From NCBI GenBank assembly GCA_001798715.1, contig MGSF01000046.1, positions 1,515 to 38,632 on the forward strand: a DNA stretch of 37,118 bases. Reading direction: 5' to 3'. This stretch comes from Deltaproteobacteria bacterium RIFCSPLOWO2_02_FULL_50_16. Lineage in GTDB: Bacteria; UBA10199; 2-02-FULL-50-16. Below, one piece after another: positions 21,110 to 37,118 of the stretch. A program made the position numbers and the translations under genes. Under the pieces are notes generated by a model. The model saw only the letters and a program-made list of their open reading frames with translations, was not told the origin of the DNA and ran no database searches. Positions within the stretch are counted from its first letter, which is position 1. Each line of letters opens with the position of its first letter.

Positions 21110-21703
21110 TCAGGAGGGATGAATAAGGTTCATGAACTCTTCGCGGGTCTCATGACGATTGCGAAAGGCCCCCAGCATCGAACTCGTGACAACAGTGGAG
21201 CCTGATTTTTGAACGCCCCGCATCTGCATGCACAGATGCTCGGCCTGAATGACAACGGCCACCCCCAGCGGATCCAGGACCTTCATCAAGGTGTCGGCAA
21301 TCTGATTGGTCAGACGCTCCTGGACCTGGAGACGCCTTGAAAACATCTCGACCAGGCGCACAATCTTACTGATCCCCAATATTTTTGTGTTCGGGATATA
21401 GGCCACATGACATTTTCCGAAAAAGGGCAGGAGATGATGTTCGCACAAACTATAAAGGGAAATGTCCTTCATGGTGACCATCTCTTGGTGATCTTCGGTA
21501 AATAGAGCTCCATTGATGATCTCTTCCAGATTCTCCCGATATCCCTTGGTGAGAAAATGATAGGCATCGGCCACTCGTTCAGGCGTCTTTAAGAGGCCTT
21601 CACGTCCAGGATCCTCTCCAATTTCACGAAGAATCCCCCTGACATGCTCTTCCATGGGGATTTTTTGCTGATGGGCATCGATTTGATAGACCTTTTTGGA
21701 CAT
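21110..21703 (-). CDS. folE: GTP cyclohydrolase I
   Basis: [63 protein letters not shown]. Confidence 0.97.
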
Positions 21704-21758
21704 GTCTTTCTCCGGAGGAGAAACCCATGATGGTTTCTTCCTCCCATCACCTCTCCGG
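21704..21758 (-). promoter_or_regulatory. Candidate structured 5' leader of folE with alternative hairpins
   Basis: tttctcc-gga-ggagaaa (plus 21707-21723) contains the folE SD; the same bases can instead pair in ggagg.agaaacc...ggtttct.cctcc (21714-21744) or ccggag/ctccgg (21712-21717/21753-21758). Confidence 0.5.
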
Positions 21759-21768
21759 GGTTACAGGG

Positions 21769-21864
21769 TCCCAGCGCTCGCATCGCACCTCTGGTGTTCC
21801 AGGCGCACCCGAGCTCTGCAAGGGTGCTGTCGCTGGGATACATTGTCCCGACGTTGTCGGGACA
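21769..21864. repeat. Intergenic palindromic repeat copy (same core module as the in-frame inserts) plus adjacent hairpin
   Basis: tcccagcg/cgctggga outer stem (21769-21776/21831-21838) around catcgcacctctggtgttccagg...gagctctg; then tgtcccgac-gtt-gtcgggaca (21844-21864). Confidence 0.75.
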
Positions 21865-32438: not shown

Positions 32439-33608
32439 ATGATGGACAAGACACAAAAATATATCGGCTGGGCCTGTACCTACACCCCCCTTCCCCTCAT
32501 CGAGGCCTCAGGATTCACTCCTTATCGCCTCCTCCCCACAACCCAGGCCCCTGATCGTTCAGGACATAAGCTTCACGACAATCTATGTCCCCATATCAAA
32601 AAAATCCTTGATCGAGCCCTCGATAACGATCTGCCTCCACTGGCCGGAATCGTTTTTGTTAATAGCTGCGATGCCATGCACCGACTGGCGGACGCCTGGA
32701 ATCAAGTACGCCCTCATGATAACACCATTCTCATTGATCTCCCAATCGCACCTCCGGTGCTCCAGGGTCCCGGAGCTCTGTCGACGGGGCCCATCGCACC
32801 TCCGGTGCTCCAGGGTCCCGGAGCTCTGTCGACGGGGCCCATCGCCAATGACGAAAAATCCGTCGACTTTTTGAGCCAGGAATTTTCCAAACTCTCCCAG
32901 ACCCTTGCAGAATGGTCGGGAGAGACCCCCACAAAGGCAGCCACCCAAGAAGGCCTGTCGCACTATCACGAGATTTATAACCTTCTCGATGAAATTAAAA
33001 ATCACCACATCAAGGGTACCCTCAACAAAGGGGGGGCCTTTATGCAAGACCTCTACAATCAAGCGGCCACACAGTCCTCCACTCAAACCCTAGAATCCCT
33101 TAAAAAATGCCTCGCCTCCTTCCAAGAGACTCCTTCCCTTCATAAAGGTATCCCCCTCTTTCTTTTTGGAAATGTCCTCCCAGACCCCGAGGCCTTTTCA
33201 CTTTTTGAATCCTGCGGGGCTTACATCGTTGCCGATAATCTTTGTACCGGTTTTCGCCAATTTGCCGCCTACGACAAGATCCCGCCAGGTCTCAACAATG
33301 ATCAAGATGTTTTTGCCTTCCTGGCTCGCTCTCTCCTCATGCGAACCCCCTGTGCCCGTACATTTGATCCCCAAAAACCCCTTTATATCGCCGATCAGCT
33401 TTTGGCCGAGGCCAGGTCTTATGGGGTTCGGGGCGCCATTGGACACACGGTCAAGTTTTGCGATCCCTATTTGGCCCGACTTCCCATAATACGAGAGGTC
33501 TTTAAAAAGGCAAAAATGCCCCTCCTCCTCCTTGAGGGAGACTGTACGTTGCGCTCGATGGGTCAGCACCGCACACGTATTGAGGCTTTTGTTGAAATGT
33601 TGGGGTAA
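32439..33608 (+). CDS. 2-hydroxyacyl-CoA dehydratase / benzoyl-CoA reductase-type subunit (HgdB/BcrB/C-like) carrying an in-frame tandem repeat insertion
   Basis: GIVFVNSCDAMHRLADAWNQ, IADQLLAEARSYGVRGAIGHTVKFCDPYLARLPIIREVFKKAKMPLLLLEGDCT; neighbours a paralogue and an activase. Confidence 0.85.
   Translation: MMDKTQKYIGWACTYTPLPLIEASGFTPYRLLPTTQAPDRSGHKLHDNLCPHIKKILDRALDNDLPPLAGIVFVNSCDAMHRLADAWNQVRPHDNTILIDLPIAPPVLQGPGALSTGPIAPPVLQGPGALSTGPIANDEKSVDFLSQEFSKLSQTLAEWSGETPTKAATQEGLSHYHEIYNLLDEIKNHHIKGTLNKGGAFMQDLYNQAATQSSTQTLESLKKCLASFQETPSLHKGIPLFLFGNVLPDPEAFSLFESCGAYIVADNLCTGFRQFAAYDKIPPGLNNDQDVFAFLARSLLMRTPCARTFDPQKPLYIADQLLAEARSYGVRGAIGHTVKFCDPYLARLPIIREVFKKAKMPLLLLEGDCTLRSMGQHRTRIEAFVEMLG
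32745..32840 (+). repeat. 48-bp palindromic module, two exact tandem copies, in frame inside a dehydratase-subunit gene
   Basis: atcgcacctccggtgctccagggtcccggagctctgtcgacggggccc at 32745-32792 and 32793-32840; encodes IAPPVLQGPGALSTGP twice. Confidence 0.95.
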
Positions 33609-33614
33609 AACTTT

Positions 33615-34883
33615 ATGATTTCACAATATTTTGATTCTCTCATCAGCGGCATTGAGGCCAAGATAAAGGAAGATCCCAAGGCCTTTCATCCCCGCAAAAA
33701 ATACACCCTTGAGGTGGCCCGACTGGGAAAAAGACTCTATGCCCGAGAAGGGCCCATCGCATCTCCGATGCTTCAGGGTCCCGGAGCCCTGCCGACGGGG
33801 CCTATCGCTCTCTGTGGCGTCACGACCCCCTTTGACCTCCTGAATGCCATGGGAGTCACCTCCTGTTTTGTCGAATTCATTGGGGCCCTATTGGCCTCAA
33901 GCGGAACCGTCGCCCCCTTTCTTGAAAAGGCCGAGCATTCAGGTTACGCCTCGGATTCCTGCGGCTATCATCGGGCCGTCCTCGGGGCCTCACAAGAGGG
34001 GCTGATGCCCCATCCCGACTTCCTGATCGCCACCTCCTGCCCCTGTAGCGGGGGATTGGCGACGATGGAAAACCTCGCCCATCACTATAAAAAAGACCTC
34101 TTTCTTCTTCATATCCCACAGGACCTGTCAAAAAAGAATGTAGATTATTTGGCCCGGCAAATCATGGAAATGGAAACCTTCGTGACCCGGCACACAGGTC
34201 GCCCCCTTGATCCTGATCGTCTCCTAAAAGTCATCGAAAAGACCAATCAGGCCCGGGAACTGATGGTCGAGATCTATCACCTTGCCCAGCACATCCCCTC
34301 CCCCAATAGTGGCAAGGAACTGGGAAACTTTGCTATTGTCATGGCCTTATTATTGGGGACGGACGCCGCCATTGATGTCACCAGGGCCTATCGTGATGAA
34401 TTTGCCGCAAGACTCCATGCGGGGTCTAGCGGTGTCCCTCAAGAACGCCTGCGCCTCATGTGGATTCAGAATCGTATCCAATTCAAAAATTCAATCATCC
34501 CAGATCTGGAAAAAAATTATCAGGCCTCCGTCATCGTCGATGAACTCAATAGCATGACCTGGGATCCCATTGATCCTCATGATCCTTATGTGGGTTTTGC
34601 CGAAAGGGCCATTTCCATTCCTTTCAATGGTGGCGTAGAACGACGTGTCCAGCATCTCAAGAAATTGGCCCAAGATTATAAAATCGACGGGGCCATCAAT
34701 CCCTGTCACTGGGGATGCCGGCAAGGAACGGGGGCGAGGGGCTTGATCGAGGAGGGTCTTAAAGAAATCGGGGTTCCTGTCCTCAATCTGGAAGTGGATT
34801 GTGTCGATACAAGGAATTATGCCGAGGGACAGCTGAAGACGCGGCTGGGGGCTTTTTTCGAAATGCTGCATAGTCGCCATTAG
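33615..34883 (+). CDS. 2-hydroxyacyl-CoA dehydratase / benzoyl-CoA reductase-type subunit with one in-frame repeat insertion
   Basis: ALCGVTTPFDLLNAMGVTSCFVEFIGALLAS, SYxCGYHRAVLG-like segment, ATSCPCSGG, GAINPCHWGCRQG. Confidence 0.85.
   Translation: MISQYFDSLISGIEAKIKEDPKAFHPRKKYTLEVARLGKRLYAREGPIASPMLQGPGALPTGPIALCGVTTPFDLLNAMGVTSCFVEFIGALLASSGTVAPFLEKAEHSGYASDSCGYHRAVLGASQEGLMPHPDFLIATSCPCSGGLATMENLAHHYKKDLFLLHIPQDLSKKNVDYLARQIMEMETFVTRHTGRPLDPDRLLKVIEKTNQARELMVEIYHLAQHIPSPNSGKELGNFAIVMALLLGTDAAIDVTRAYRDEFAARLHAGSSGVPQERLRLMWIQNRIQFKNSIIPDLEKNYQASVIVDELNSMTWDPIDPHDPYVGFAERAISIPFNGGVERRVQHLKKLAQDYKIDGAINPCHWGCRQGTGARGLIEEGLKEIGVPVLNLEVDCVDTRNYAEGQLKTRLGAFFEMLHSRH
33756..33803 (+). repeat. 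Diverged single copy of the 48-bp palindromic module, in frame
   Basis: atcgcatctccgatgcttcagggtcccggagccctgccgacggggcct; encodes IASPMLQGPGALPTGP. Confidence 0.93.
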
Positions 34884-36964: not shown

Positions 36965-37118
36965 GGGAACCTCTAATAACCCCAAATTTCGGGAACCTCT
37001 AAAAACCGCCCAGGTGCAAGGCGCCCGCCGAGTGAGGCCCGAGGCGTACTAGACTGTTCGCAGAGCTCACAGTACCTGAGGCATCAGAGATGCTGATCCG
37101 AAAGTACGTTGAGGGCCG
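36965..37118. repeat. Modular intergenic repeat element, truncated by the window end
   Basis: gggaacctctaa at 36965 and again at about 36991; on the minus strand contains gcatctctgatgcctcagg...gagctctg (module of the in-frame inserts) and cgggcctcactcggcgggcgccttg (module shared with 11246-11279). Confidence 0.75.

Follow-up and report, generated by a model that had tools for sequence, protein, structure and literature searches.

The genome of Deltaproteobacteria bacterium RIFCSPLOWO2_02_FULL_50_16 carries dozens of copies of a tiny double-hairpin DNA element with a fixed length of 48 bases, which is best explained overall as a non-autonomous miniature mobile element whose two-hairpin unit is inserted as single-stranded DNA and directed to hairpin loops (probability about 0.72). 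The copies were located in the host genome (1.73 Mb in 90 contigs, labeled C11, C21, and so on), starting from a contig stretch of 37,118 nucleotides, referred to as the window. The genome-wide covariance-model search proposed in the original prediction was run with a model, R1, built from simple copies of the unit, and it returned 62 matches at E ≤ 1, about 45 of them below 0.001, which also take in related subfamilies with different stems. Pattern searches of the whole host genome gave 34 matches to a 20-mer core with up to three mismatches, compared with 1 for the reversed control, and 41 matches to the 15-mer CTCYGGNGCTYCAGG with up to one mismatch, again compared with 1 for the reversed control.

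Nine simple copies of the unit could be aligned without gaps, and each of them consists of hairpin A (GCNCC-TCY-GGNGC), a TYCAGG linker, and hairpin B, as exemplified by GTCCCAGCG-CTCTGC-CGCTGGGGC. The proportion of paired cells in the two helices of these copies was 90.5%, compared with 38–54% when the partners were slid, and four pairs were altered on both sides, whereas none was so in the slid versions. Thus, the stems vary with compensation, whereas the loop and the linker are conserved. The two hairpins stand head to tail, with their CTCYG loops 24 nt apart; because this spacing is exactly maintained in a tandem array, the 48-nt unit can be read as two 24-nt hairpin modules. The measured unit ends (CCCATC..CTGGGA, CGCATC..GGGTG, and CGGATC..ACAGT) are not inverted repeats of one another. 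A subfamily with near-identical hairpins, found at C56:2305, C62:35802, C81:20879, C72:3117, C31:6116, C41:15323, and C83:4220, is embedded at one and the same position in a longer dispersed repeat, ..GGGGCTAAAGCC[element]GAAAA.., with which it has apparently been copied.

The copy that drew attention to this family is a 96-nt intergenic composite in the leader of folE, at 21743–21838 on the plus strand, with folE on the minus strand. It is made up of an outer 48-nt unit (21743–21779 plus 21828–21838) and an inner 48-nt unit, GCATCGCACCTCTGGTGTTCCAGGCGCACCCGAGCTCTGCAAGGGTGC, at 21780–21827 on the plus strand, which interrupts the loop of the outer unit's second hairpin; cutting out the inner unit leaves exactly 48 nt. 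The inner unit sits at CTC|TG of the outer loop, although 21779–21826 at CT|CTG is an equivalent reading. The core noted in the original prediction, CATCGCACCTCTGGTGTTCCAGG, is present at 21781–21803 (23 bp), and its resemblance to inserts within coding sequences holds, with up to 21 of 23 positions identical, compared with a maximum of 18 of 23 among 200 simulated windows of equal length (first-order Markov model). The likeness covers the whole 48-nt unit, with compensated stems, and is therefore not a chance similarity restricted to the short core. The element had been taken to start at 21769, but its start lies at 21743, since the first hairpin had been overlooked. The stem TCCCAGCG (21769)/CGCTGGGA does pair as described; it does not wrap the core, however, and is the second hairpin of the outer unit, split at its loop. 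Likewise, the second perfect hairpin, TGTCCCGAC-GTT-GTCGGGACA at 21843–21863, exists as predicted but lies outside the element; it belongs to another repeat, found in gene leaders, whose first hairpin it forms, and the leaders at C44 and C21 have a hairpin with other stems in the same position. The fixed length of 48 nt, the nesting in hairpin loops, and the assignment of this hairpin to a different repeat had not been noted before. The DNA fold of 21743–21864 was more stable than those of shuffled sequences, with z values of about −3.2 and −3.4 for the two strands.

The leader repeat is common to several genes and comprises a CCCGCC-TTT-GGCGGG hairpin, a GGAAGAAACCATCATAGGTTTCTCC hairpin, and GGAGAAAGACATG. 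In the window, GGAGAAAGACATG lies at 21701–21713 on the minus strand and reads as a putative ribosome-binding site with the start codon of folE (ORF 21110–21703). The second hairpin of the repeat, GGAAGAAACCATCATGGGTTTCTCC on the minus strand at 21717–21741, adjoins this site; the same pattern is found at C39, C21, and C52, with a related form at C44, so that at least five unrelated genes have the GGAAGAAACCATCATAGGTTTCTCC hairpin adjoining the ribosome-binding site in their leaders. As a separate observation, GGAGAAAGACATG occurs three times in the leader of an ftsK-like gene around 1340–1540 of C21, within two head-to-tail copies of a 65–66-nt leader unit; this is another small repeat, one by which gene starts are duplicated.

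Evidence for mobility was obtained by comparing sites within this one genome. In comparisons of three kinds, sites that are otherwise identical differ by the presence or absence of units, in exact 48-nt steps. At one point of the gene leaders, C21 has nothing, C44 has 48 nt, and the folE leader of the window has 96 nt, as judged between paralogous leaders; the loop of the first leader hairpin is 3 nt long in C21, 50 nt in C39, and 98 nt in C52, the C39 step being 47 nt net. The second comparison concerns a MITE-like repeat with the core CGGCCCTCAACGTAC..TAGTACGCCTCGGG, of which at least eight copies were observed (37038–37118 in the window, C11, C21, C53, C62, two in C69, and C87). At 37053–37100 on the minus strand, the window copy contains a 48-nt unit of a third subfamily (CGGATCAGCATCTCTGATGCCTCAGGTACTGTGAGCTCTGCGAACAGT), and the filled site, TTT^CTAG, within the repeat core at 37042–37113 on the minus strand measures 72 nt. 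Seven other copies of this host repeat are empty exactly at this point and carry CTCAACGTACTTT^CTAGTACGCCT, or versions of it differing by one to two bases, over 24 nt, whereas the filled copies in the window, C54, and C73 have the same sequence plus 48 nt without duplication. The tally is thus seven empty copies and four filled readings from three loci; as the three filled copies are identical, they may represent one event that spread with the host repeat.

The third comparison is provided by nested copies. The CTC and TG of the outer loop are separated by 48 nt in seven loci (window, C86, C13, C63, C62, C76, and C52), and the outer loop halves are 96 nt and 95 nt apart in two further loci, where an extra unit of the third subfamily is placed at GAGCTC|TGCGAA; one nested case measures 47 nt. 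Nested units were accordingly counted at nine loci, although copies with a common outer context may stem from fewer events. At the clean sites of all three kinds (MITE-like, leader, and nested), there is no target duplication and the junction is T^C; the nested and leader insertions lie 3′ of CT, and the MITE-like insertion 3′ of TT. The recurrent loop targets, given as occurrences uncorrected for a background rate, include the element's own hairpins, the leader hairpin, and two unrelated hairpins (C71 and C27). Hairpin loops, including those of the element itself, are hence recurrent targets, and as a result units nest.

In our codon-usage survey, many of the strongest matches were inside genes, in both orientations and in different frames. 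Because copies occur in several frames and both orientations within genes, and also in intergenic sites, leaders, and other repeats, the claim that the element is not protein-derived is supported. Since 48 bases are exactly 16 codons, a coding insertion adds a 16-residue linker and can be accommodated in frame in many housekeeping genes without breaking them. In the window, a tandem pair at 32741–32788 (R1, 77.6 bits) and 32789–32836 (83.2 bits), both on the plus strand, lies in frame in a 2-hydroxyacyl-CoA-dehydratase-like ORF (32439–33608), with CTCYG loops at 32752, 32776, 32800, and 32824 and with the peptide PIAPPVLQGPGALSTG repeated at a period of 48 nt. Another unit, at 33752–33799 on the plus strand (76.9 bits), is in frame in the HgdB/2-hydroxyacyl-CoA-dehydratase-like ORF 33615–34883, and exactly 16 residues are lacking in two homologs of 56–57% identity identified by tblastn. 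The AlphaFold2 model of the product of the latter ORF, based on a nine-sequence alignment, had a mean pLDDT of 86, and its sole segment below 50 was the insert, residues 46–60, placed between a helix and a strand, a low value that is partly expected because no homolog covers the insert.

Inserts of the same size are present elsewhere in the genome: ClpB has 16 extra residues directly before the Walker B strand compared with solved ClpB, and TlyA has 16 extra residues compared with 13 homologs. RlmN contains a composite of about 62 residues that is absent in solved RlmN, and a NirB-like protein contains one reading as 48 residues, as inferred from its repeats. Units were also found in acetyl-CoA synthetase, an HDAC-like protein, agmatine deiminase, riboflavin synthase, UvrC, a MetH-type activation domain, and aconitase, in regions for which the alignment of homologs is poor or lacking. 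The inserts in UvrC (about 66 nt) and riboflavin synthase (about 69 nt) seem to fall off the 48-nt series, which would imply incomplete units or changes after insertion, and the insert in phosphoglycerate mutase was left out as an exact case because it measures 16–17 residues depending on the homolog. The younger units are stop-free in most or all frames. Type-1 units have 5.6 of six frames open, compared with 4.9 in shuffles; as this maximum was reached, though never exceeded, in 500 shuffles and the units are mutually related, the finding is suggestive only. Taken together, the 62 model matches, the exact empty and filled pairs within the genome, and the 16-residue inserts missing from homologous proteins support the earlier proposal that the palindrome is able to enter both genes and the gaps between them.

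With respect to the mechanism, the T^C junction, the absence of target duplication, and the preference for hairpin loops suggest movement through single-stranded DNA, comparable to the way in which TnpA-REP and IS200/IS605 enzymes act on hairpins in DNA single strands. The unit would move as single-stranded DNA, would be recognized by hairpin shape and loop sequence, and would be joined into single-stranded hairpin loops without target duplication, as in TnpA-REP/IS200-IS605 chemistry. TnpA-REP cleaves single-stranded REP substrates at CT (PMC8266576), which is consistent with the insertion 3′ of CT in the nested and leader copies. On this explanation, the intergenic copy of the window represents selfish DNA acquired by the folE leader through two consecutive insertions. 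Several findings count against it, namely, period-48 direct repeats at some coding copies, which are not predicted by insertion without target duplication, the 47-nt cases, the inserts off multiples of 48, and the search for a cognate transposase, which found none in the host genome: its single Y1_Tnp gene, at C87, has its own GGGGTCAG-type terminal repeats, and no unit was present in the 3.3 kb around it. This gene was considered as a partner of the unit and rejected, given its own GGGGTCAG terminal repeats (judged by the GGGGWSAS motif, PMC3733652) and the lack of any unit nearby. The locus itself, C87 1471–2451, is of note as a Y1 transposase gene of the GGGGTCAG terminal-repeat type that has been inserted beside a duplicated gene end.

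The direct repeats deserve attention, as they are the reason for retaining an explanation that dispenses with a transposase. By replication error, a nascent strand could switch template through short homology to a 48-nt hairpin unit, either close by or in circular form, copy it once or more, and return, which predicts exact multiples of 48 accompanied by direct repeats of the homology. Such repeats, of 5–13 nt at period 48 and often with CATCGC, do flank several young coding copies, for example, GTCGACGGGGCCC in TlyA and CCCATCGCCCCT in phosphoglycerate mutase, and those of 9–13 nt have a period of exactly 48 at coding copies including C25:13880, C77:17492, and C62:43768; they are unexplained by insertion without target duplication. 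The tandem pair at 32741–32836, the failure to find a cognate transposase, and the compensated stems, which fit hairpin correction, also agree with template switching. However, the clean sites of the MITE-like, leader, and nested kinds show neither direct repeats nor homology, the nested and leader copies being free of any period-48 repeat, and the targets have T^C and hairpin loops in common; moreover, the scatter across many contigs requires a long-range step. We therefore regard template switching as an unlikely, if serious, origin of the family.

It is very improbable that the units are functional RNA hairpins, such as attenuators, terminators, or leader regulators, duplicated under selection. 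The covarying stems and the intergenic or leader position of several copies, that in the folE leader among them, would suit such a role, whereas the many copies within coding sequences in both orientations, the empty sister leaders in the same genome, and the lack of matches in 145 other genomes do not. For the folE-leader copy itself, a regulatory role is possible and finds no support here: no consensus site of a terminator or promoter was found at 21743–21863, and Rfam gave no match to the copy, the only RNA-family match in the window being a tRNA. An artefact of assembly or binning is hardly credible, even though this is a metagenome-assembled genome in 90 contigs and short repeats can confuse assembly, because the copies lie inside long unique contigs and keep the reading frames of conserved genes, the unit sequence differs between sites, and empty and filled sites are held by different contigs. 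Loop-directed insertion of a mobile 48-nt unit is the explanation that we favor.

It is known already that palindromic repeats can be carried in frame in essential genes, both as Rickettsia palindromic elements (RPEs) and as intragenic REPs (PMC10969869, PMC3733652). RPEs (Ogata 2000/2002) are described in the review PMC10969869 as dispersed palindromes that occupy intergenic sites and also lie in frame in unrelated genes, many of them essential, with the proteins apparently still functional. The present unit resembles them in being in frame in unrelated protein genes (the window ORFs, ClpB, TlyA, RlmN, and others), but RPE families are about 100–150 bp long with a conserved peptide, whereas the unit here is 48 nt long, is read in several frames and both orientations, nests in its own loops, and is without a CGTC tag, in a host not known as a member of Rickettsiales. 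The GTAG- or CGTC-tagged intragenic REPs of Opitutus terrae, R. conorii, and Thauera are short hairpins that occur singly, as dimers, or in clusters and add roughly 20–80 residues to ORFs (PMC3733652). Our unit likewise consists of short hairpins, single or composite, within ORFs; unlike them, it has no GTAG or CGTC tag at its ends by the criterion of that study, and it shows a fixed 48-nt step and loop-nested copies.

In REPINs, the replicating unit is a hairpin doublet whose arms are inverted and flank the RAYT gene (PMC3116915), and TnpA-REP acts on single-stranded hairpins, with cleavage at CT and no target duplication (PMC8266576). A hairpin doublet as the replicating unit is a shared feature, and the clean insertions here, 3′ of CT or of TT, show no target duplication either. 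However, the hairpins of the 48-nt unit stand head to tail with a 24-nt spacing of their loops, and the host's sole Y1 transposase gene, at C87, has unrelated terminal repeats and is flanked by no copies. Because the defining tags and the RAYT linkage fail, the family is not classed as a member of the RPEs or REPs, though its behavior is alike. It also differs from MITEs in having neither terminal inverted repeats nor target-site duplications, as judged by the exact comparison of empty and filled sites. SDR5 of heterocystous cyanobacteria (Elhai 2008, as cited in PMC4390886) is a very small mobile module that targets the position between nucleotides 3 and 4 of HIP1 (GCGATCGC). Compared by description only, the two are alike in small size and in precise insertion into a short palindromic target, and unlike in that the 48-nt unit is found at T^C sites, often in hairpin loops. 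No description of a fixed 48-nt unit nesting in its own hairpin loops was found in a partial literature search. We tentatively raise the somewhat doubtful possibility that the family represents a distinct class of mobile element, a 48-nt double hairpin inserted as a single strand into loops including its own, with recursive nesting, a 16-codon length that passes through essential genes, and an enzyme other than RAYT.

These findings extend in-frame palindromes in essential genes, so far mostly a Rickettsia story, to a distant lineage, and they provide clean empty sites within one genome, which the Rickettsia case has rarely offered. The strict 48-nt step combined with insertion into hairpin loops makes the mechanism testable, as it predicts that the single-stranded intermediate has a single length. 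Should selection for passing through genes have fixed the unit at a multiple of three, this would be a case of selfish DNA whose form was set by the reading frame and, in that case, a natural source of 16-residue linkers in conserved proteins.

As for distribution, R1 gave no match in the genomes of 145 relatives, the nearest of which was one genome of the same order, or in 45 members of the class, a set overlapping with the former. Exact-pattern scans of genome-contig and viral-contig collections, from which near relatives of the window may be left out, and a plasmid scan yielded nothing for the unit. The carB protein of the window was closest, at 67%, to that of a Geoalkalibacter MAG, and the sole Rickettsiales protein among the named top matches was a distant one from Pelagibacteraceae, at 60%. 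A relative in the same class carries a different in-frame insert in its TlyA (CHPRESGDLGIAWDSRFHGND), which looks like a REP-type palindrome; in-frame palindromic inserts may be common in the class of the host.
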